From contig JABIBH010000378.1 of NCBI GenBank assembly GCA_018652925.1, forward strand, positions 1 to 11,811: a stretch of 11,811 bases of DNA. The letters run 5' to 3'. This DNA comes from a bacterium (GTDB lineage: Bacteria; Krumholzibacteriota; Krumholzibacteriia; LZORAL124-64-63). The notes under the pieces are model-generated. The model was not told the DNA's origin. It made no database searches and saw only the letters and a list, made by a program, of their open reading frames with translations. Below, piece after piece: positions 1 through 10,949 of this stretch. Made by a program: the position numbers and the translations under genes. Each line of letters begins with the position of its first letter. Within the stretch, counting starts at the first letter, position 1.

Positions 1-3000
1 ACACTAGTTACACGTGATCCGAACGTGGGTGGACAAGCCACGAATCAGGTCGTGCACGTCACTGCCGACGATGTATCTCTGAGCGATCTCACGATCGATG
101 GCAGATATGGCTTTGACCAAGTCACTGGGCAAACCACGAATTACGGCATCATGGTTGCGGCCGCTGGGGTCACATTGACCAACGTGGATGTGCTGGATTC
201 AACGAATCATGCCATCGAACTCAACAATGCCGATTACGCCACGCTAACAAACGTGCTCGTGAAGCGAACGGCCTTTGCACCTGGCTACTACAACCCTTTT
301 GATTGTGGCCTGCGTTGTGTTGATTCCGAAAACCTGGACGTGGATGGTTTTGTCGCAGACGGGACCAAACGCGGTATCGTCGTATTCCAGGGCTTCAACA
401 GTGGTACCCTTGAGGACATTACCATTCAAGGCAGCAGCGTGGCAGATAGCTACGGAGTTGGTTTGTACACATCACCAGCGCCGGGGTGGTGGCAACCTGC
501 TTTTGGAAACTACGAAGGCGACTTGACCATCACATTTGAAGGCGTGAACCAGGTTGCAGGCGTAGACAACGGAATCTATATCAGTGATGAACTAATGACC
601 AATGACATCACCCTGACTATTGATCCAGCTGCCACTTTTGATTACTTCGGCGCAACATCCAATGGAGCACTGCGCGTCGGTTCCGGCAGCGTACCAAACC
701 TAGATACAGTCATGGCGTCCATGGGGCTGACGGATAAGACAGTGGGCCCGCCGGATCTGTATAACTACGATCAATGCTGGGGCTATGCTAATATTCGCGA
801 GCATCCTTACTACTCACCATCGACGGATCTTGTGCTGGGTGACTTTGATACTTTCTGGGAAGGCGTAGAAGGCTATCACATCACTTCAGATTTTCAGATC
901 AACATCGAGTATCAGGATGGAATCAATTGTTATGATGTTGACAACTTTAATGCCTATGCTCCTGGAGGAGAGTGGACCTACAACTTCTCCGATGAAGAAC
1001 AATATGCATTCAATTACAGCGCCACAGGTGGTTTGACCATATATGAATATGATAATCTAGCAGAAACCGTTGGTGGTTCTGATATCAAGTGGACAATCAC
1101 AGGCTGGCATCAAACTATTCTTGCCGGTGATGTAATTAATGGCAAGCTCGTTGTGCTTCCTAGTGGCACATACAGGCCATTCACGGGAGATGTCCCAGTT
1201 AATGATGTAGAGATATTTGACGGCGATTTGGATTGTGAGGTTCTTGGTTACACCTTTGACTTCAGTAATGGAGTTGTTGGAGGAATTTTGGGTGTCGAGA
1301 AGGTAGGAGATGCAATTATTGCAATTTCTCCTGAAGCAAGTGGTCCAATCAACTGCTCAGAATCATCTCTGCTAATAGTTGATATAGATCTTAGCGAAGC
1401 AGCTTCTGCTCTAAGAGGCTATGAAGTAACAGTTTCTGCAGGAGCAGAAGTAAGTTTTGATGCTTCAGATATAATTGATCTCGGGGCTTTGAGCTCAGTA
1501 GGTGCGCAAAGTTTCCATGCTGTTGATAATGGGGATGGTACAGTTACTGTTTCTGCTGCACTTCTAGGTGACACACCTGGTCTTACAGCTGCAGCAGATC
1601 TGTTTAGTATAAATACCCACGGGGCATCCACGGGCGAGGCCACGATTTCCCTAACAGCTGTACTTCGTGATCTAACAAATGGTGATATTAGCTTCACCAC
1701 TTCCGATGCAAATGTATCAGTGGATTGTACTGCATCAGATGTGCCGACAATGGTTGCTGAACCAGTCTTCACAGCAGGCACTTCCAATACAGTTAGCTGG
1801 AGTGATGAGTCTGGTAGTGGGGCTGAGTTATATTATGCTGAGTGCTCATCTGTAAGTGACTTCTCAGCTGGCTTGGTAAATAGTGGCTGGATTGCTGATT
1901 TGAGCTATCAGTTTACGGATCTTACTGGTGGAGTAGAATATTACTACCATGTTAAGTCCAAAGATACTTATGATAATGAATCGGCTTATTCGGATGCAGT
2001 ATTCTCGACCCAGGACTCTGCTTTACCAGTCTCCGAAGTAGATCCTCTTGTCTCATATCACAATACGATGGCCTTCGATGTTGCCTATACTGCTAGCGAC
2101 TTACTTGTTGGTAGTCCGACTCGCTCATTAGCCAGCATTAAGTTGTTCTATCAGGTGGACGGAGGGAGTTGGATTCAATTTGGCGACACATTCACATCGA
2201 GTCCAATTGCGTTCACGGCAACATTCGAAGGCTGTTATGGTTTCTACACCATAGCTACAGATGATGCAGGTCAAGTTGAACTTGCTCCTGACCCCTTAGT
2301 TGCTGATGCTTCAACAATTGTTGATACCATTGATCCAGTAGGTACTTTTGTTATTAACAATGACGATGCTATTACAAATAGTGTTGATGTTACTTTGTAC
2401 AATGCGATTACAGATGACAATGCTCCTCTGGAAATGCAGTTCAGTAATGATAACACAACATTCAGTAGCTGGGTTGCATACGATGCAACTGCGAGCTTTG
2501 CTCTAACAGTAGGAGATGGCGTAAAAACTGTTTACGCTAGGTTCAAGGATTCTGCAGAAAACATTTTCGAGATTGATGATAGCATCACTCTTGATGGTGC
2601 TTCAACAGCAGCTCCAACTGCGCTTGCCGTTGTTCCAGGAAATCAGAAGATTGATGTTTCATGGGTTGATCCTGTAGATCCCGACCTAACCGAGGTTGAA
2701 ATCTGGCGTGGTGTCTGGCATGATGGATCAGGAGTTTCTGTATATCCTGAGTATGACGATGACGCAGGAAGTACAACCCCAACTAGACCAGCAGATCGTG
2801 CAGCCGCACTATCTAGTACTGAGTGGGAATTGGCTGGAACTGTTGATGCAGGAATAGAGGCATTTTCAGATGACAACCTTACAGCCCGTGGTATTTGTTA
2901 CTATGAGTTGTTCGCAATAGATAGTGCTACAAATTATAGTGCTCCAGTTGCAGACAGTGCGCGAGCAACTAACTACTGGCTTGGTGATGTTGCAGATCCT

Positions 3001-3876
3001 TATAATGGACTTGTTAATACTGCCGATATCACAACACTTGGTGCTGCCTTTGGTGCAGACCATGGTGATGAAACTTACAATAACGAAGATGATGTTGGTC
3101 CAACAGGAGACATGAGCAGAGTCGGTATTCCAACTACAGATAACACAATAGACTTTGAAGACTTAATGGTCTTTGCAATGAACTATGGTGTTGTAGGTAG
3201 CAGGGAACTTGGTAACCCAGGTGCGCTTTCAATGGCAATTCTTGCCTGGAACTGTGTTGAGCCTGGTGTCTGGACTCTGGAACTTGTAGAACCTTGCGAA
3301 AACCTTCAGGGCTTGAAAATATCAGCTCCGGAGCAAGTTGCTCAAGTATCTATTGGTCAGCTGATTAGAGAACAGAATATGCCTTACTTCTTAAGTAACA
3401 TTAACCAAAATGGCCTTGATGCTTCAATAGCATTAATGGGTACAGATCAGGTAATTATTGGTGCCGGTGAACTTCTTAAAGTCACAGTCGCTAATGAAGA
3501 AGACCTGACAAATATTTTGATTAGTGTTAGAGGCAGTGACAACAGCGAGATTGAATATCAGGTTGAAACAGAGATCACGGCAGTAGATCCTTTACCAACC
3601 GAATTCAAACTTGGCAACAACTATCCTAATCCTTTCAATCCACAAACAACAATCAGCTTTGATCTTCCATCAGAGCAAAAAGTGCGCTTGAGCATCTATG
3701 ACATTAGTGGCCGTCTTATCAAGACATTAGTCAGTGAGTCAATGGAAGCTGGAAGCCACGATGTGGTTTGGGCAGGCAGAGATGAAAATGGCAGGGGAGT
3801 ATCATCGGGAGTTTATTACTACCGAATAGATACAGGCATATTTAGCCAAACCCGTAAGATGACTTTGCTTAAGTAG
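1..3876 (+). CDS. Large multidomain secreted protein with beta-helix, cohesin-like, Fn3/Ig, dockerin-like and T9SS sorting domains (5' end outside window)
   Basis: The reading frame is open from base 1, so the true start lies upstream; the GTG at 25 is only the first internal start codon. The visible 1291 residues are modular. Residues ~10-220 have the periodic V/I-D-G pattern of a right-handed parallel beta-helix. Residues ~442-576 form a cohesin-like module (RGYEVTVSAG, DGTVTVSAALLG). Fn3-like segments lie at ~581-671 and ~868-990, with two Ig-like segments between them. Residues ~993-1065 resemble a dockerin: a first loop after GDVADPYNGLVNTADI and a second ending TTDNTIDFEDLMVF. A degenerate cohesin-like segment (~1076-1190) follows. 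The last ~93 residues are a T9SS type A sorting domain (NNYPNPFNPQTTISF, IYDISGRLI, GVYYYRI, KMTLLK). Known tails of this family direct export across the outer membrane and surface attachment or release. An adhesive or scaffold role is inferred; no catalytic motif was recognised. G+C falls from ~55% before base ~840 to ~42% after it. Confidence 0.9.
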   Translation, partial: TLVTRDPNVGGQATNQVVHVTADDVSLSDLTIDGRYGFDQVTGQTTNYGIMVAAAGVTLTNVDVLDSTNHAIELNNADYATLTNVLVKRTAFAPGYYNPFDCGLRCVDSENLDVDGFVADGTKRGIVVFQGFNSGTLEDITIQGSSVADSYGVGLYTSPAPGWWQPAFGNYEGDLTITFEGVNQVAGVDNGIYISDELMTNDITLTIDPAATFDYFGATSNGALRVGSGSVPNLDTVMASMGLTDKTVGPPDLYNYDQCWGYANIREHPYYSPSTDLVLGDFDTFWEGVEGYHITSDFQINIEYQDGINCYDVDNFNAYAPGGEWTYNFSDEEQYAFNYSATGGLTIYEYDNLAETVGGSDIKWTITGWHQTILAGDVINGKLVVLPSGTYRPFTGDVPVNDVEIFDGDLDCEVLGYTFDFSNGVVGGILGVEKVGDAIIAISPEASGPINCSESSLLIVDIDLSEAASALRGYEVTVSAGAEVSFDASDIIDLGALSSVGAQSFHAVDNGDGTVTVSAALLGDTPGLTAAADLFSINTHGASTGEATISLTAVLRDLTNGDISFTTSDANVSVDCTASDVPTMVAEPVFTAGTSNTVSWSDESGSGAELYYAECSSVSDFSAGLVNSGWIADLSYQFTDLTGGVEYYYHVKSKDTYDNESAYSDAVFSTQDSALPVSEVDPLVSYHNTMAFDVAYTASDLLVGSPTRSLASIKLFYQVDGGSWIQFGDTFTSSPIAFTATFEGCYGFYTIATDDAGQVELAPDPLVADASTIVDTIDPVGTFVINNDDAITNSVDVTLYNAITDDNAPLEMQFSNDNTTFSSWVAYDATASFALTVGDGVKTVYARFKDSAENIFEIDDSITLDGASTAAPTALAVVPGNQKIDVSWVDPVDPDLTEVEIWRGVWHDGSGVSVYPEYDDDAGSTTPTRPADRAAALSSTEWELAGTVDAGIEAFSDDNLTARGICYYELFAIDSATNYSAPVADSARATNYWLGDVADPYNGLVNTADITTLGAAFGADHGDETYNNEDDVGPTGDMSRVGIPTTDNTIDFEDLMVFAMNYGVVGSRELGNPGALSMAILAWNCVEPGVWTLELVEPCENLQGLKISAPEQVAQVSIGQLIREQNMPYFLSNINQNGLDASIALMGTDQVIIGAGELLKVTVANEEDLTNILISVRGSDNSEIEYQVETEITAVDPLPTEFKLGNNYPNPFNPQTTISFDLPSEQKVRLSIYDISGRLIKTLVSESMEAGSHDVVWAGRDENGRGVSSGVYYYRIDTGIFSQTRKMTLLK
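1324..1728 (+). repeat. RGYEV cohesin-like module, copy 1
   Basis: This segment encodes ~135 residues homologous to copies 2-4. It starts at SPEASGPINC and ends at VSVDC. Key shared positions are RGYEVTV, DIIDLGALSSVG, DGTVTVSAALLG, LFSIN and VLRDLTNGDI. It differs from the others where they read GQQSGxGQ: here the text is HGASTGEA, encoded by a locally G+C-rich patch. The fold assignment to the cohesin superfamily rests on pattern and dockerin co-occurrence and is less sure than the homology among the copies. Confidence 0.75.
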
Positions 3877-3940: not shown

Positions 3941-4894
3941 ATGAAAATAATAAACACAAGGACACGGTTTATTCTACTGATGTTGTTTCTTTTGGGTAGT
4001 AGCGTTTCTTATTGTGCAACCCTCAACTTCATTCCATCTAGTTCCGATACTTTACGGTGTGGTCTTACAAGGTCAATAACAGCTCAATATGTAGCCGATT
4101 TTAACACTTCACTGCGTGGGTATGAGGTAACTTTTCATTCTTCGGACGAGCTCAGTTTTTCTACCGAAGATATTGTAGATTTAGGTGCTTTTTCAGGAAT
4201 TGGAAACCAGTTTTTTAATTGTTATTGGAATGTGGACGGTTCTGTAACAGTTGCTGTTGCTCTGCTTGGTGAAACTCCAGGGCTATGTAGCTCAGGTTCA
4301 TTGTTCAGCATAAATGTTATTGGTCAGCAGTCTGGTACTGGACAATTAATAGTTGATGAAGTTATTTTCCGAAATCTTGAAAACCAAGACATCCCAGCTT
4401 ACAGCCAAGATGCAACTATTGAAGTTTATTGTGAACCTGTACCAGTAGAACTTTACTTTAATCCAGAGTCAATCCAAATCGATCAGGGAGAAACTTCAAC
4501 TATTGCAGTGATGATTAAAGAACCTGTAGAGATTAGAACAATCGAAATGACAGTGACTTATAACTCTGAACTTATTCAGAGTAACTCCGGTACACCAGGT
4601 GCCTTATTTCAAAATGCTGGTTGTCCAATATTTGAACACTTTGAAGATGGTGAGCTTAATCAATGGTATGGCTCAGCGGTTCTCTTGGGGGATGATTGTT
4701 GGATCGATTCTGCAGGAGAGCTTTATGTTTGGGAGTTTACTGGACTGATTGATGGTGTGTCGCCAATTGTTGCGGCAGAAGTTTATCTTTATAGCCCAGA
4801 TGCTTCACTGATTGAACATGTCACAATCTCCACAACTCAAGTTATTCATAATGTGAATACTAGTTTTGGCACAGTAAAAGCGATGTTTAGATAG
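3941..4894 (+). CDS. Small secreted protein with two cohesin-like modules and a C-terminal FGTVKAMFR ending
   Basis: The chosen ATG gives a 317-residue protein with a good Sec signal peptide (MKIINTRTRF then a hydrophobic run ILLMLFLLGSSVSYCA) and a G-run upstream (3928-3932) as possible ribosome binding site. An in-frame TTG at 3926 would add five residues and is less likely. Residues ~29-164 are an RGYEV cohesin-like module (RGYEVTFHSSDELSF, GSVTVAVALLG, GQQSGTGQL). Residues ~167-307 are a second, divergent cohesin-like module (LYFNPESIQIDQGET... IHNVNTS). There is no T9SS tail. Instead the protein stops at FGTVKAMFR, closely matching the ends of the two minus-strand secreted proteins at the right of the window. 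Only 10 bases separate it from the next gene, implying one operon. A structural or adhesive extracellular role is inferred; no enzymatic motif was seen. Confidence 0.85.
   Translation: MKIINTRTRFILLMLFLLGSSVSYCATLNFIPSSSDTLRCGLTRSITAQYVADFNTSLRGYEVTFHSSDELSFSTEDIVDLGAFSGIGNQFFNCYWNVDGSVTVAVALLGETPGLCSSGSLFSINVIGQQSGTGQLIVDEVIFRNLENQDIPAYSQDATIEVYCEPVPVELYFNPESIQIDQGETSTIAVMIKEPVEIRTIEMTVTYNSELIQSNSGTPGALFQNAGCPIFEHFEDGELNQWYGSAVLLGDDCWIDSAGELYVWEFTGLIDGVSPIVAAEVYLYSPDASLIEHVTISTTQVIHNVNTSFGTVKAMFR
4026..4432 (+). repeat. RGYEV cohesin-like module, copy 2
   Basis: The encoded ~135 residues run from IPSSSDTLRCG to IEVYC. Shared positions are RGYEVTF, ELSFSTEDIVDLGAFSGIG, DGSVTVAVALLG, LFSINVIGQQSGTGQ and VIFRNLENQDI. 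The bounding Cys pair (RCG near the start, VYC at the end) is also present in copies 3 and 4 (IIC...VLC/VEC) and in copy 1 (INC...VDC). A conserved disulphide closing the module is possible. Confidence 0.75.
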
Positions 4895-4904
4895 TTTGGA
4901 GTTT

Positions 4905-7493
4905 ATGAAGAAACTGAAAATGCTTAAGCTTATTAGTTTTATAATTATTTTTCTGTATGCCACTTCAGGTATGGCAGAAATACTCAATGTGCCTGATACT
5001 TACAGTACAATTCAGGAGGCTATAAATAATACTATTGCTGGCGATACTATAAATGTTGCGCCTGGAGTATATCGCGAGCAATTATCAATTATAAATAAAA
5101 ATATTACTTTGGTTGGTTCAGGAGTTGGGCTCAGTTTAATAGAGGCTCCAAATCCTGAAAACAGATCTACATATCAAATTACACAATGGAATGGCTCAAC
5201 TTCTACAGTTGATGCAATTTTAGGCATTCAGGAGTCTGAAAATGTGACTGTTTCAGGTTTTTCAATCGATGGAAGACAAACCGGACCTGCAAATTATTAT
5301 GGTATTCATATATTCAATTCAAGTGTTGAAATCCATCATTGTAAAATTGAAAATATCTTGTACCCAGCCTCACCAAGAACTAGGTCGGTATTGTCTTTGA
5401 TTTCTACTCACGGTATTGATGTCAGTTATGATGTAAATATTCATCATTGTGAAATCCCGAATTTTCAAAAAGGAGGCATCGCTATACTTGGACCTGGAGC
5501 CAGTTTCGATGTCTCATATAACACAATTGTAAATGCATTAACAACGGATAATTTAGGTAATGGAATTCAATTGTCATATGGAGCTAGCGGGTCAACAATG
5601 TGTAATAATATTCAAGGTGCAGGGGATATAAGCCAAGCTAGTAATGCTACGGGAATTTTACTCTTTGAGAGTGGTGACCTGTCTATGACCAATGATGTTG
5701 TAAATTATTGTCAGGTAGGCATTAATTTCTGTTCATGGAATTGGATGTTTTTAGAATCTACAGAAACAAATATATTAATCGATGGGCTTGAGATACACAG
5801 TAACGAGTTTGCTTTTGTTGGGCACTTGGCTGGTAATAATAGTGATGTAAATATTGATATTTCTAATCTTAATTGCTATGACAATACAGATGATGGAATT
5901 GAGATATATGGAACTGGAGTAGACCCCTGGGGAGGAACTTTTTATACAGGATGGTTAAACGGAGATTTATCTGTATCAATCATTAATTCAACCATTGCAG
6001 ACAATGGCGTTAATGGAATTTGGACAGCCGATTACTCTGGTAATAGCAATATTGTTATATTCGATGTTCATGAATCATCGTTTTTAAATTGTTCAGAACA
6101 GGCAATAAGTAATGGATTCTCGCAAACAATAGATGCTACATATTGTTATTGGAATGACTCCGATGGTCCTGTAGTCGAGGCAACCAGGAATGGCCAACAT
6201 CGTGTGGCGCCATTATCAGAACCATTTGGAATGATTCTTCCTCAAAGTAGAGGTTCGGCTATAAGTAATAATCGTATTGGAGAATCAGTTTCAGGTCCAA
6301 TCTACTATGAACCGTGGTATCGTAATGCTGAAATGACAATCCTTGGAGGTGATTATGCAACTATGTTTGTAGTTCCGGATAGTAGTGGTCCTATAATATG
6401 TGACCAAATCCAACCGCTTCACTTTTTATATATGCCAGAATCCACAACACCTCCAGCTAGGGGTTATGAAGTGACTTTTCATGGTACAGAAGAGCTTTCA
6501 TTTTCATCCACAGATGTAATTGATTCAGGAGCTTTGTCAGGCATTGGAGAGCAGTCATTTCATTGCTACGATAATGATGATGGCTCTGTGACTATAGCAG
6601 CTACGCTACTTGGTGTTACAGATGGGCTTGCTAACTCCGATTCATTATTTTGTTTAAATGTAACAGGACAACAATCCGGTGTTGGGCAGATTGTTATAGA
6701 TGAAATAGTATTTCGAGATTTGGCGAACGGAGAAGTCGCAATTTATGGACAAGGATTGGCAGTTGAGGTTCTTTGCTTGCCAACCAGCTTAACTATTTTA
6801 CCTGAGACCAGTGATCCAATAATTTGTGACCAGGTTCTCCAACTTGATTTTATATATGCACCCCAGTCAGCATTATTAAAAGTTCGTGGCTATGAAGTGT
6901 CTATTTCCGGTACTGAAGAGCTCTCATTTTCTGCTGCAGATGTTATCGATTCAGGAGCTTTGTCAGATATTGGTGGTCAGGCCTTTTATTGCTATGACAA
7001 TGACGATGGTTCGGTAACGGTTGCTGCAGCATTACTTGGACTCGCCAATGGCCTGGCAAGTTCTGACACATTATTTGCAATAAATATTACAGGTCAACAG
7101 ACAGGAACTGGGCAACTAATAATTGATGAACTTATTTTAAGGGACTTAAATAATGGAGAGATTGTAATTGAAGGTTTTGATTTGGAAGTTGAAGTTGAGT
7201 GTGCGCCAGTTTTAGTTGAAAATCTGCCTCAAAAATTAATTCTATTTCAGAACTACCCAAATCCGTTTAATCCACAAACCACAATATCTTTTGTGTTACC
7301 TGAAGGTGATTCAATTATTTTGAACATCTATGATTTATCTGGTCGATTAGTGCATACCGTAATAGATGATTATGTTCACGCAGGGACTCATAATCTGATT
7401 TGGAAAAGCAAGGGTGTGGCGTCTGGAATTTATTACTATCGGCTGTCAACAACTGGTTTTTCCAAAACAAAAAAAATGGTTTTAATAAAATAG
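4905..7493 (+). CDS. Secreted beta-helix protein with two tandem cohesin-like modules and T9SS sorting domain
   Basis: From the ATG at 4905 the product is 862 residues. GGAG at 4898-4901 is a close Shine-Dalgarno (3-base gap); a TTG at 4896 is an alternative start. A signal peptide (MKKLKMLKLISFIIIFLYATSGMA) is followed by a pectin-lyase/NosD-like parallel beta-helix, residues ~25-473. That domain opens with the typical STIQEAINNTIAGDTINVAPGVY and closes with CYWNDSDGP...PIYYEPWY. Two homologous cohesin-like modules follow at ~490-624 and ~631-766. Residues ~771-862 are a T9SS type A sorting domain (QNYPNPFNPQTTISF, IYDLSGRLV, GIYYYRL, KMVLIK). The beta-helix fold is used by polysaccharide lyases, periplasmic copper-loading NosD and many adhesins; no lyase catalytic residues could be assigned here. 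Surface display with a binding or structural role is the best inference. It shares architecture with the first gene but lacks a dockerin. Confidence 0.9.
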   Translation: MKKLKMLKLISFIIIFLYATSGMAEILNVPDTYSTIQEAINNTIAGDTINVAPGVYREQLSIINKNITLVGSGVGLSLIEAPNPENRSTYQITQWNGSTSTVDAILGIQESENVTVSGFSIDGRQTGPANYYGIHIFNSSVEIHHCKIENILYPASPRTRSVLSLISTHGIDVSYDVNIHHCEIPNFQKGGIAILGPGASFDVSYNTIVNALTTDNLGNGIQLSYGASGSTMCNNIQGAGDISQASNATGILLFESGDLSMTNDVVNYCQVGINFCSWNWMFLESTETNILIDGLEIHSNEFAFVGHLAGNNSDVNIDISNLNCYDNTDDGIEIYGTGVDPWGGTFYTGWLNGDLSVSIINSTIADNGVNGIWTADYSGNSNIVIFDVHESSFLNCSEQAISNGFSQTIDATYCYWNDSDGPVVEATRNGQHRVAPLSEPFGMILPQSRGSAISNNRIGESVSGPIYYEPWYRNAEMTILGGDYATMFVVPDSSGPIICDQIQPLHFLYMPESTTPPARGYEVTFHGTEELSFSSTDVIDSGALSGIGEQSFHCYDNDDGSVTIAATLLGVTDGLANSDSLFCLNVTGQQSGVGQIVIDEIVFRDLANGEVAIYGQGLAVEVLCLPTSLTILPETSDPIICDQVLQLDFIYAPQSALLKVRGYEVSISGTEELSFSAADVIDSGALSDIGGQAFYCYDNDDGSVTVAAALLGLANGLASSDTLFAINITGQQTGTGQLIIDELILRDLNNGEIVIEGFDLEVEVECAPVLVENLPQKLILFQNYPNPFNPQTTISFVLPEGDSIILNIYDLSGRLVHTVIDDYVHAGTHNLIWKSKGVASGIYYYRLSTTGFSKTKKMVLIK
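6372..6776 (+). repeat. RGYEV cohesin-like module, copy 3
   Basis: It encodes VPDSSGPIIC through VEVLC. It aligns along its whole length with copy 4 immediately downstream, including RGYEVTFHGTEELSFS, DVIDSGALSGIG, CYDNDDGSVTIAATLLG, GQQSGVGQIVIDE and FRDLANGE. At DNA level 6522-6540 is identical to 6948-6966 in copy 4 (19 bases), showing a tandem duplication inside the gene. Confidence 0.85.
6795..7202 (+). repeat. RGYEV cohesin-like module, copy 4
   Basis: It encodes LPETSDPIIC through VEVEC, a tandem copy of the preceding module separated by about six residues. Conserved positions include RGYEVSISGTEELSFSAADV, IDSGALSDIG, CYDNDDGSVTVAAALLG and GQQTGTGQLIIDE. It leads directly into the linker before the T9SS sorting domain. 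Confidence 0.85.
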
Positions 7494-7765: not shown

Positions 7766-9505
7766 GTGTCAAACATTCGCTATCTTTTAATTGTTGCTGT
7801 GTGCCTCATAATGAGTCCAACATTTGCTTTAGCTGCCCATGTGTCACCTTCTGATGCCAATTTGATTTGTAACAACTGGATTGATTCTATTGTGTCATCA
7901 CAAGGTTCTTGGGCAGATTCAAATTTGCCACAAATTATGTCCTCATCTGGCATTTATATAAATGATGTTCTAGTTGGATACCGATTTGATATTGAGCCTT
8001 CTGGATATGTAGTTGTTCCATCAATAAATGAGCTTGCTCCAGTCAAGTCATGGAGTGATACCGGCTTCTTTAATGATAATGGTTTTAGTGCTTTTGTAAT
8101 CGACAATTTGTATCAAAGAGTAAAGATAGCAACACAGCTTACAGCCAATCAGAAGTTGAGAGCATTTCCCGATGCAATTTTAAATTATAACTCTCATAAG
8201 ACTTTTAGTGAACGCGATTTTAAGCCAGCAAGAGATGAAATGAACCGTTATGGTCCTTTACTGGAAACAGAGTGGCATCAGGATTTTCCGTTTAATAAAA
8301 AGTGTCCTACAGGGGATGGTGGTAGAACATTTGTTGGATGTACTCCACTAGCAGCCGCTCAATTGACTAGATATTATAGTTGGCCAAGATCTGGTGCCGG
8401 CACTAAATCTTGGTGGTGGGATGGCGATACCGGTTGTGACGGTGAAAGCCCAGGACTAATAATCGAAGCTGATTATGATGATTTATACAGCTGGACTAAT
8501 ATGCCATTTTCAGTTGGCTGGAATGCTAGTCAAGAAGTACAAGAAGCTGTTTCAGAGTTGTGCTTTGAAATGAGTGTAGCATGTAATACTGAATTCAGTA
8601 GATGTGGCTCTGGCGCTTCACTTGCCGATGCCAAAACTGCTTTGATCAACCATTTTCGCTATAGTGAATCAGCTCAAGAGTTATCTCGATTTTGGTATCC
8701 AGATGAAGATCAGTGGTTTGAATTTATTCAACAAGAAATTCAACAAGGTAGGCCTATTCTCTATTCAAGTCTTATTCACACAATGGTATGTGATGGAACA
8801 TTTACAAACGAATATATTAAACAGATTCATTTGAATTATGGTTGGGGCGGCCAAAGTAATAATTGGTTTTCTATCGATAATATAGAAACCAGTTATTATG
8901 ACCTAACTGAAAAAATGCTAGTTGGTATTACGCCAGATGTTGCTGGAGTTGAGCCAGTAGTTGAAAATTTTAATGCATCAGGAATGGAGCGCTCTGCAAT
9001 ATTGAGATGGTCAGTTTCAGATGTTTGGTCTGAAACTGAATTCTTAGTCTTTAGGTCTAATGGCGACGATGTGTACATCTTAGAAACTGATATTCCACTT
9101 ACTGGATTAGATAATTATATCTTCGAATCAATTTCCTCATACACAGAAAACACTAGGTGGAAGTTAGAAGCAATCGATTTGAATGGTAATCGATGGGAGT
9201 ACGGACCTGTTTCTGTGCCAAGGACAAATCAAATTCAGATAATGATGAATATAAGTCAATCGACAAATGGATTTAAGACTCAGGTTAGCTTTTTATTAGA
9301 TGTTGCGGGGGAAGTTATTTTTTCTGTTTATAATTTGCGCGGTGAAAAAGTCACTGAGAAATTTATTTATGGATTGCCTGGCATAAATACAGTTTCATGG
9401 GATGCTCAGAATGATTTTAGTCAGCCTGTATCGGCTGGGATTTATCTGGCAAAAGTGGCCGTTGGTAACTATTCCGAGTCTTGTAAAATAACAATAACTA
9501 AATAA
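7766..9505 (+). CDS. Secreted streptopain-like (peptidase C10 family) cysteine protease with T9SS-like C-terminal domain
   Basis: The GTG start gives 579 residues beginning with a Sec signal peptide (MSNIRYLLIVAVCLIMSPTFALA); GGAAG at 7756-7760 is a plausible ribosome binding site. Residues ~25-160 resemble the inhibitory propeptide of C10 zymogens (VGYRFDIEPSGYVVVP). The catalytic domain spans ~160-390. It has the nucleophile Cys192 in FVGCTPLAAAQLTRYYSWP, the catalytic His338 in LIHTMVCDG, and the IHLNYGWGG segment with Trp360 that in streptopain/interpain lines the active site. Residues ~395-485 are Fn3-like. The last ~90 resemble a degenerate T9SS sorting domain (VSFLLDVAGEVIFSVYNLRGEKV ... 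GIYLAKV ... CKITITK), lacking NYPNPFNP. Family members digest proteins outside the cell after autocatalytic propeptide removal. It appears intact and active. It follows the surface-protein cluster after a 272-base gap and is probably transcribed separately. Confidence 0.92.
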   Translation: MSNIRYLLIVAVCLIMSPTFALAAHVSPSDANLICNNWIDSIVSSQGSWADSNLPQIMSSSGIYINDVLVGYRFDIEPSGYVVVPSINELAPVKSWSDTGFFNDNGFSAFVIDNLYQRVKIATQLTANQKLRAFPDAILNYNSHKTFSERDFKPARDEMNRYGPLLETEWHQDFPFNKKCPTGDGGRTFVGCTPLAAAQLTRYYSWPRSGAGTKSWWWDGDTGCDGESPGLIIEADYDDLYSWTNMPFSVGWNASQEVQEAVSELCFEMSVACNTEFSRCGSGASLADAKTALINHFRYSESAQELSRFWYPDEDQWFEFIQQEIQQGRPILYSSLIHTMVCDGTFTNEYIKQIHLNYGWGGQSNNWFSIDNIETSYYDLTEKMLVGITPDVAGVEPVVENFNASGMERSAILRWSVSDVWSETEFLVFRSNGDDVYILETDIPLTGLDNYIFESISSYTENTRWKLEAIDLNGNRWEYGPVSVPRTNQIQIMMNISQSTNGFKTQVSFLLDVAGEVIFSVYNLRGEKVTEKFIYGLPGINTVSWDAQNDFSQPVSAGIYLAKVAVGNYSESCKITITK

Positions 9506-9549: not shown

Positions 9550-10236
9550 CTATCTAAACATGGTTTTTATTTGACCCCAAGTTGCAGTGTTGTTTTCAGT
9601 GGGATTGCCAGGATAAAGTATTTTAGTTCCAAACACTCTGTCATAACCATCGGGAACTGTAAAGAATGGAGGGCTGGGATCACTAATTCCAGTTCCAGTA
9701 AATCCCCAACCGCTAAGGTTATAACCTATTAATTCAATTAATTCCATAGATGAGCCTCCATCAAGATCACATGTTCCAATAGATGATCCAGAATAAATAT
9801 CCCATCCAAATGGATCGCTCAGTAACATTGTCATCCCATTGTCAATGGTTCCGCGAAGAATCATCTCACCATCTGCAAATGTAGATGAATCAGACCAAAC
9901 TCCAAGAGACCCACCTGATAGAGCATCTTTGTAAATGGCAAATTCTCCTCCAGTGAATACAACCTCTTTTATGCCGTTAGCGGGATTCCATTCGAATGTC
10001 TCTATTAACAACCCGGTTACACAGAGTGTGTATTGAAAGTTGTCATAATCCAAAGGTATTGGATTTGGAGTTGCTAATGGTGGATTGGCAATCCCAAAAA
10101 CCTCTACTAAAGAACCTGGAGTGTCCTGTGCTGGACTAACTTTAGAGTAACCTTCAAATGTGAATTCGACTTGAGCAAAAGTAGAAGTGGCCAGAAGAGC
10201 CAACATGATTACCAGTGCTAGTTGTTTGTTAAACAT
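9550..10236 (-). CDS. Small secreted protein of unknown function ending WGQIKTMFR, paralogue of its operon partner
   Basis: The product has 228 residues, a clear signal peptide (MFNKQLALVIMLALLATSTFA, cleavage before Gln) and no other membrane segment. I do not recognise the family. It aligns with the upstream gene product along its length: AQxEFT after cleavage, PGSLVEVFGI versus PGDILAGFGF, IKEVVFTGG versus IDRIVYSGG, TFADGEMILRGTID versus TFTDGQILLNGTFD, TVPDGYD versus TVPHGFD, and the shared end WGxIKxxFR. The body looks beta-rich with many Gly, Asp and aromatic residues, suggesting an extracellular beta-sandwich. There is no T9SS tail. It starts 11 bases after the upstream stop with a strong AGGAGGTG site overlapping that stop, so the two are probably co-translated. 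Function unknown. Confidence 0.85.
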   Translation of the reverse strand: MFNKQLALVIMLALLATSTFAQVEFTFEGYSKVSPAQDTPGSLVEVFGIANPPLATPNPIPLDYDNFQYTLCVTGLLIETFEWNPANGIKEVVFTGGEFAIYKDALSGGSLGVWSDSSTFADGEMILRGTIDNGMTMLLSDPFGWDIYSGSSIGTCDLDGGSSMELIELIGYNLSGWGFTGTGISDPSPPFFTVPDGYDRVFGTKILYPGNPTENNTATWGQIKTMFR

Positions 10237-10241
10237 TATGA

Positions 10242-10249
10242 CACCTCCT
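10242..10249 (-). promoter_or_regulatory. Shine-Dalgarno AGGAGGTG overlapping the upstream stop codon
   Basis: Read on the minus strand, the upstream gene's TAG (10250-10248) runs directly into AGGAGGTG, five bases before the ATG of the downstream paralogue. Terminating ribosomes would sit on this site, so translation of the pair is likely coupled. It also fixes the start of the downstream gene. Confidence 0.85.
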
Positions 10250-10949
10250 ATCTAAATAAATTTTTGATTGAGCCCCAACTTACATCATTATTTGAGATGG
10301 TTGACATGTAATAAACATGACCATCTGTCGATAAATCAAAGCCATGGGGGACAGTACTATCATTGTCGATGTTTACTACTCCAGCAATCGTAAAGCCAGT
10401 TGGATCCTCTAGTTCGTACCCTTGATTTTGAAACCAAGGTCCAAGTTCAAATGTTATCATACCCTGGTAATTACCAACTCCCAAAATATTGTCATATGTT
10501 AACGCAAAACTATCAAATGTCCCGTTAAGCAAAATTTGACCATCGGTGAAAGTATCTAGGAATTGATTTTGTGGTGGATCAGTTCCAAAGATGGGGTCTG
10601 AGTAACTTGGATTAGTATAAGCATCGGCTATTATATTTATGGTACCTCCTGAATAGACTATTCTGTCGATGTTACCTCCAACATTTACTGCACCTGTAGA
10701 AACCAACTCTGACATATACCAAGTATAGCAGTATTCTTCTGTTGACCACTCAATCGGGTCACTTGTGTTGTCGACAAAACCAAACCCGGCAAGAATATCT
10801 CCAGGGTTACTCTCTTCGAATCCAGTAGTATCAGGTGAGTTGTCGGATTCATAAACAAATCCGATAATGTCAAGGACGGTAAATTCGTCCTGGGCGATAG
10901 CTACTGTAGCTATCAAAATGATTGAATATACAATTAAAATAGTGCGCAT
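10248..10949 (-). CDS. Small secreted protein of unknown function ending WGSIKNLFR, first gene of the operon
   Basis: The product has 233 residues with a signal peptide (MRTILIVYSIILIATVAIA, cleavage before Gln). The start is supported by GGGAGGGG at 10955-10962, five bases upstream of the ATG. The mature part is acidic, Gly/Asp-rich and probably all-beta. It is a divergent paralogue of the next gene (shared AQxEFT, GG-I-x-x-IVYSGG, FTDGQILLNGTFD, TVPHGFD blocks), with extra residues in the N-terminal third. It ends SWGSIKNLFR, which matches both its partner and the cohesin-like protein at the left of the window. No T9SS tail, catalytic motif or known family was recognised. The pair may have arisen by tandem duplication. 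It is preceded by an untranslated leader of probably more than 100 bases. Confidence 0.85.
   Translation of the reverse strand: MRTILIVYSIILIATVAIAQDEFTVLDIIGFVYESDNSPDTTGFEESNPGDILAGFGFVDNTSDPIEWSTEEYCYTWYMSELVSTGAVNVGGNIDRIVYSGGTINIIADAYTNPSYSDPIFGTDPPQNQFLDTFTDGQILLNGTFDSFALTYDNILGVGNYQGMITFELGPWFQNQGYELEDPTGFTIAGVVNIDNDSTVPHGFDLSTDGHVYYMSTISNNDVSWGSIKNLFR

Follow-up and report, generated by a model that had tools for sequence, protein, structure and literature searches.

A short C-terminal tag on exported-type proteins, some of them encoded beside a PorU-like protease gene, suggests an undescribed route of protein sorting to the cell surface

Pairs of a C-terminal tag and a sortase decide which proteins bacteria display on their surface, and few such pairs are known. 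One of the systems closest to the case presented here is the type IX secretion system (T9SS). According to PMC10202324, its sortase PorU cuts T9SS tails at T, E, D or N standing before G, A or S and joins the cargo to lipopolysaccharide; the same review states that PorU itself bears a T9SS tail and that genes for type B cargo usually cluster with partner PorP/SprF genes. In the PEP-CTERM/exosortase, GlyGly-CTERM/rhombosortase and MYXO-CTERM/myxosortase pairs, a short C-terminal region found on many exported proteins is paired many-to-one with an intramembrane processing enzyme. The Gram-positive sortase/LPXTG systems follow the same many-to-one logic, and some of their substrate genes adjoin their sortase.

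The tag described here shares with T9SS types A, B and C and their PorU a C-terminal signal, signal-peptide proteins of various domains, and a host range of SprA-bearing bacteria, and its candidate partner enzyme, a protease of family C25 that we call C25-II, has the layout of PorU. It differs from types A and B in that its tail is 12-16 residues long and in that the models of these types match none of 52 tag proteins, and from T9SS with PorU in that the candidate partner is not PorU but a separate paralogue of it, whose gene stands behind tag genes. With the three CTERM pairs it has in common the short C-terminal region, the many exported proteins and, if the candidate is right, the pairing with one enzyme, but the tag lacks their transmembrane stretch with a basic cluster, and the candidate is a C25 cysteine protease instead of an intramembrane enzyme. 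With sortase/LPXTG it shares the many-to-one logic and the place of some tag genes next to the gene of the enzyme; enzyme family, motif and envelope are unrelated. No description of the tag was found in the literature searched. Together with C25-II as a candidate sortase, the tag would be a variation on the many-to-one logic of the CTERM pairs.

The stretch of DNA analysed, here called the window, is one whole contig of 11,811 nucleotides from an assembly of 1.90 Mb in 420 contigs that is 76% complete. Its features are:

1..3876, plus strand: protein open at the window start, with a cohesin-like domain and a T9SS type A tail (TIGR04183, 34.4 bits)
3941..4894, plus strand: cohesin-like tag protein of 317 residues, exported-type; tail at 4850-4891 (NVNTSFGTVKAMFR)
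4908..7493, plus strand: protein with a cohesin-like domain and a T9SS type A tail (TIGR04183, 39.9 bits)
7766..9505, plus strand: Peptidase C10 family protein (PF01640, E 5e-43) with a weak T9SS-type tail (TIGR04183, 18.4 bits), convergent with the minus-strand tag pair
9550..10236, minus strand: tag protein of 228 residues, exported-type, with a signal peptide and a beta-rich domain; tail at 9594-9553 (NNTATWGQIKTMFR)
10248..10949, minus strand: tag protein of 233 residues, exported-type, distant homologue of 9550..10236; tail at 10292-10251 (NNDVSWGSIKNLFR)

A preliminary description of the window had claimed that three of these proteins end in a shared signature, [WF]Gx[IV]Kx[ML]FR. The three tails are where it had placed them (FGTVKAMFR at 4865-4891 on the plus strand, WGQIKTMFR at 9579-9553 and WGSIKNLFR at 10277-10251 on the minus strand), and TAG follows directly after each. 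The signature is real and stands at the stop codon, but the true tag is wider than written: after the W or F the next position takes G, S, T or D, the V/I position also L or M, and the final R is present in 61% and absent in 16%, being otherwise N, K, Q, S or E. Roughly, the consensus at the stop codon is N-[DE]-x-x-[ST]-[WF]-G-x-[VI]-K-x-[LM]-[FY]-R. The two minus-strand proteins are distant homologues, as supposed (33% identity, E 2e-6), and the cohesin-like tag protein is as unlike them as had been said, BLASTP giving no significant match with 9550..10236. The T9SS tails ascribed to the neighbours hold for the two cohesin-like ones, but that of the C10 peptidase is weak, 18.4 bits against a cut-off of 23. 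The Cohesin model itself scores 22.4 bits on 3941..4894, slightly below its cut-off of 24.1; the domain is shared with the gene behind it, 4908..7493 (E 2e-42, 38% over 266 residues; E 3e-37, 49% over 145 residues), and with the gene in front, 1..3876 (E 5e-27). Inside one window, one cargo domain is carried with either the tag or a T9SS type A tail. The arrangement of a minus-strand tag pair and a convergent gene for a C10-family (streptopain-like) peptidase recurs on another contig of the same genome, C86 (L002), where the peptidase gene lies at 1734-3161 and its C10 likeness was read from the letters by eye.

Elsewhere in the source genome the tag keeps the same strict place. When all six frames of the window and of 60 sampled contigs are read, the signature exactly as first written turns up six times, each time followed by a stop codon; a tail matrix run on the frames of the 60 contigs gives seven of 1275 a score of 27-44, the next best being -4.7. 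A profile of five tails, three from the window and two from a paralogous locus (A1), was run on six frames of the whole genome without restriction to C-termini and found 24 places at E<=10, every one of them 9-12 residues from a stop and 22 at exactly nine. As the proteins end at the ninth residue from the aromatic in these 22 places, there is no room for a membrane helix, and the tripartite layout of PEP-CTERM is not found. A second profile (A2), built from 24 tails that are mostly places already found by A1, gives 27 matches at E<=10, of which 25 are below 1e-4, one is at 0.015 and one at 0.97. The tag ends 26 proteins of this genome (frames of at least 60 residues, the two weaker matches included and one short frame at a contig end left out). 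The preliminary description had noted that all three window genes finish with the same nucleotides, TTTAGATAG, which is true of them, but only three of the 26 tag genes have this ending and the others use various Phe/Tyr and Arg codons; with such mixed codon use the shared 9-mer is a coincidence, and the conservation lies at the protein level.

When signal peptide and tail are removed, the 26 proteins fall into 16 body groups without detectable similarity (BLASTP, E<=1e-3), so the tag is not confined to the homologues of one domain. A signal-like N-terminus, called by a simple hydropathy rule instead of a trained predictor, is present in 24 of the 26 and missing from two frames. An enrichment of the tag among signal-peptide proteins had been proposed and is borne out in a sample of 199 genes of the genome, where six of seven tag proteins are signal-like against 49 of 192 others (Fisher p 0.002); put the other way, the tag is carried by 6 of 55 genes with such an N-terminus and 1 of 144 without. 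The seventh tag protein of the sample is a short frame, and its likely orthologue in a relative of the same genus (G046) has a signal-like start.

Across the phylum, A2 matches all 80 genomes searched at E<=0.1 (the named relatives are Krumholzibacteriota), with 2 to 49 matches each and 1473 in sum, and a column-shuffled profile of the same 24 tails matches none of the 80. For one tag family, the organisms in which relatives were found (49 loci) bear the names Krumholzibacteriia, Krumholzibacteriota, "bacterium" or "uncultured bacterium", and one isolate (two loci) bears the name Verrucomicrobia. Among 268 distinct collected tails, a collection that leans to one large family because it was gathered partly via that family and C25-II, the Lys is present in 267, S or T stands before the aromatic in about 96%, and the aromatic is W or F in 97%. 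A signal-like N-terminus is found in 248 of the 256 collected tag proteins with a readable 5' side. One genome (G007) has seven tandem tag genes (L256:11167-16917), five of them ending in variants like SWGAVKARF or SFGAVKGRF, which are lineage-specific drift of the tag. That the tag is a product of chance, or of the common descent of one domain, would fit the homology of the two minus-strand proteins and a single-linkage cluster that takes in 199 of the 263 collected bodies, the sample being biased to that family; with 16 body groups in one genome, a shuffled profile that matches nothing, and tails that in both proteins modelled lie outside the confident fold, this explanation is scarcely credible.

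The proteins that carry the tag are diverse. In 52 that were scanned, LTD, CHRD, X25, DUF642 (choice-of-anchor C), Temptin_C, PPC, DUF4114, C-type lectin, cohesin and beta-helix matches were found in one to three members each. Most match nothing, and no Pfam or NCBIfam family is common to more than three, by which the tag itself seems to be without a model in the copies of these databases that were searched. Choice-of-anchor C and DUF4114 proteins elsewhere also bear PEP-CTERM tails. The preliminary description had asked whether the tag is excluded from proteins with T9SS tails; none of the 52 matches the type A models PF18962 (E<=0.001) or TIGR04183 (E<=0.01), nor the type B model PF13585 (E<=0.001). 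Two AlphaFold models, made from shallow alignments (11 and 14 sequences) and with a mean pLDDT of 76-77, place the last 17 residues apart from a confident beta domain and at a pLDDT below 50; the tag is thus predicted to lie outside the folded domain in both proteins, and not to be its last strand.

A tail of this kind could act uncut, as a non-covalent docking peptide that folds into an amphipathic helix and holds the protein on C25-II or on another surface receptor, an idea that we consider improbable. The model of 9550..10236 has a short helix at 220-226 within the tail (212-228), and the distance to the stop is strict, at exactly nine residues in 22 of 24 places, both of which would suit it. 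In such a helix W/F, V/I, L/M and F/Y would make up a hydrophobic face, and K and R would lie opposite. The confidence of the helix is low, however (pLDDT about 40), and the second model has none; the last residue of the tag varies, which argues against an exact reading of the free end; and the candidate partner is a protease whose catalytic dyad is intact in all 18 sequences compared.

The preliminary description had suggested looking for a membrane processing enzyme that occurs together with the tag. A candidate partner was found, a C25 protease encoded directly behind tag genes, but it is PorU-like and not a membrane enzyme. In four genomes a gene for such a protease, of about 1400-1460 residues, immediately follows a tandem of tag genes. 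Matches to the PorU model at E<=1e-20 occur in 79 of the 80 phylum genomes and exceed the curated cut-off in 54; some of these matches are PorU proper, the others C25 proteins that diverge further. From 18 of these divergent proteins a second profile was built (C25-II, alignment A5). It matches 75 of the 80 genomes at E<=1e-60, as a rule with a single C25-II gene in each, and PorU matches it too, with lower scores; PorU, which scores higher with the PorU model, is a separate gene. C25-II has the layout of PorU, with a gingipain-like prodomain, a C25 domain (PF01364, E 2e-52 in one protein) and an FlgD/T9SS-type tail domain; its best match in the PDB is PorU 6za2 (E 2.3e-46), and its conserved His and Cys align to those of PorU and of Lys-gingipain (Kgp). 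In a tree, the 18 C25-II form one clade (support 0.948) apart from 18 PorU, whose own clade has a support of 0.464. Three C25-II score 95-147 bits with the PorU equivalog NF033707, below its curated cut-off of 420; NF052324, the putative type IX secretion system sortase PorU2, matches the same three weakly (23.8-70.4 bits, cut-off 450) and so less well than NF033707 does. SprA is found in 77 of the 80 genomes, the source genome, 76% complete, being one of the three without it. Judged by these profile matches, the phylum has a T9SS with an ordinary PorU and, in addition, a second, divergent PorU-like C25 protease. There is also a further group of large C25 proteins, of about 1560-1730 residues (L309, L310, L311 and L312, e.g. 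G000:C70:17387-18529), which match only the catalytic part of the PorU model; tag genes are absent from these stretches.

The gene order around C25-II was read in 69 stretches, 68 of which hold C25-II; 61 loci were testable, with an aligned N-terminus and at least 900 nt upstream. At 56 of the 61, one to seven tag genes on the same strand lie directly upstream, the nearest stop being within 1500 nt of the aligned start, and at 53 the nearest tag gene is within 450 nt. The 56 are not independent events, since the loci share ancestry and many of the upstream genes come from one homologous family. The five loci without an upstream tag gene are L247, L251, L269, L272 and L301. L269 is the second of two C25-II copies in its genome, the other of which, L270, does have tag genes, and at L272 (1-1600, G031) a frame resembling a group II intron reverse transcriptase, by reading of the letters, lies directly upstream of C25-II. 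Seven C25-II loci fall outside the 61: L297, which has one tag gene, five with at most 220 nt upstream, and L274, whose N-terminus could not be aligned and which has no tag gene in 6.9 kb upstream. C25-II of the source genome, which starts at a contig end (L239), belongs to the five with at most 220 nt; a relative of the same genus has two tag genes upstream of its C25-II (L240). In 11 control stretches (seven PorU and four other C25 genes, 2.1-9.6 kb upstream) there is no tag frame, and 30 PorU loci with short flanks have no tag gene either (22 with at least 300 nt and 13 with at least 600 nt upstream of the frame); five of the 11 wide controls are genes of these 30 loci. The 60 training tails of the matrix used for these counts include some from genes adjoining C25-II. 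The score cut of 5 was set beforehand and then fell in a gap from -2.7 to 7.7 among the 2845 frames of the first 24 stretches; in later stretches one counted frame scores 6.0, beside others of 11 and 21.

Genes that lie directly before a protease gene could also encode partners of the protease, that is propeptide-like inhibitors or regulators whose tail, with its near-invariant Lys, fills the active site of C25-II. It would agree with this that a C10-type peptidase gene, too, neighbours tag genes, both in the window and on contig C86. Tag proteins are, however, scattered over the genome and have various binding or lectin-like domains, and up to 49 matches in a genome against usually one C25-II make inhibitors unlikely, so that we give this reading very little credence.

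Outside the phylum, a tail profile (A6) was run on 209 other bacterial genomes. At E<=0.01, 186 have no match and 15 have one or two, some of which may be real, as about two such genomes are expected by chance. The remaining eight, from six families, are rich in tags, with from 13 to at least 32 matches each. The C25-II profile was run on 24 of the 209, namely the eight tag-rich genomes, 13 of the 15 with one or two matches, and three of the 186 without, and reaches 590-731 bits in seven of the eight tag-rich ones, from five families. None of the 16 tag-poor genomes examined has C25-II, their best C25 match being at most 324 bits (Fisher 2e-5 against the tag-rich genomes). The exception, G199, has 24 tail matches and an SprA match but no C25-II (best 91 bits), and would have either a different enzyme as partner or one that has diverged strongly. 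Positions were read in six of the seven outside genomes with C25-II (G147 was left out). In G213, G272, G177 and, among the matches listed, G288, tag places are found 3-10 kb upstream of C25-II, on its strand and contig but not next to it; in G144 and G285 they are on other contigs, and none is on the C25-II contig among the matches listed (to about E 0.05). SprA occurs in all eight tag-rich genomes, but also in 12 of the 16 tag-poor ones, and T9SS is for this reason best seen as a shared background and C25-II as the distinguishing feature.

It is this distinction that bears on a rival explanation, in which the tail would be a T9SS targeting signal of a new and minimal kind, handled by the ordinary translocon and PorU, and C25-II a mere neighbour or itself a cargo. 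The wide presence of SprA, both in the phylum and in the tag-rich genomes outside it, and the PorU-model matches in nearly every phylum genome fit this well. So does the PorU-type dipeptide [TEDN][GAS], which is common just before the tail: 187 of 268 tails have it in the six residues before the aromatic, and six control windows have it in 53-108 of 266-268 (20-40%), although the motif is a loose one and D, E, N and T abound around the tail in any case. Against it, tag genes are absent from the seven PorU stretches (5-8 kb upstream) as well as from the 30 short-flank PorU loci, the type A tail models match none of the 52 tag proteins scanned, and T9SS alone does not predict tags outside the phylum, whereas C25-II does so in 23 of the 24 genomes examined. 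On balance we think it unlikely that the tail is such a signal.

We find it likely, instead, that the tail is a C-terminal sorting tag for a surface pathway beside T9SS, which C25-II would recognise and cut and whose cargo it would probably join to a surface acceptor. The sequences and predicted structures establish its basis: a protein of exported type, a strict C-terminal tag, a tail predicted to lie outside the confident fold, and a conserved neighbour with an intact C25 active site. The signal peptides indicate that the tag proteins would reach the periplasm in the ordinary way. There the tail of 12-16 residues may mark them for the surface pathway, and gene order and co-occurrence suggest that C25-II, as a dedicated PorU paralogue, recognises it. 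By analogy with PorU, the enzyme would then cut the tail and probably join the protein to an acceptor at the surface. Contact or cleavage would most likely involve the near-invariant Lys and the acidic residues that precede [ST][WF]G. The frequent PorU-type dipeptide ahead of the aromatic speaks for this reading too and may be where the enzyme cuts; the Lys could instead be the site of the cut, as the relatives of C25-II include Lys-gingipain. In its fullest form, towards which we lean only slightly, the proposal is a T9SS-associated sorting branch with a tag of about 14 residues and a near-invariant Lys, with up to dozens of cargo proteins per genome that are cut and transpeptidated by C25-II, present throughout the Krumholzibacteriota genomes examined and in at least five families outside.

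The tag occurs across an entire phylum, most of it uncultured, and in several further lineages, and if the proposal is true, well over a thousand exported-type proteins would share the same fate. Two PorU-family paralogues and two kinds of tail coexist in these bacteria, which makes them a test of how PorU-family enzymes choose their substrates. As far as can be judged from genes and gene neighbourhoods, the tag genes adjoining a sortase-like gene suggest that proteins are sorted to the surface of these cells by a route not described before.

Tag genes also form arrays away from C25-II, with five genes in G000:C2 (L005:1997-5804) and six in G046:C149 (L190:5646-12719), and by BLASTP of the source genome's own copies the genes of such arrays span at least three families. 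A frame cut by a contig end (L083:1-154) bears the tag together with CxxCH motifs like those that bind heme, so that there is possibly a cytochrome among the cargo.
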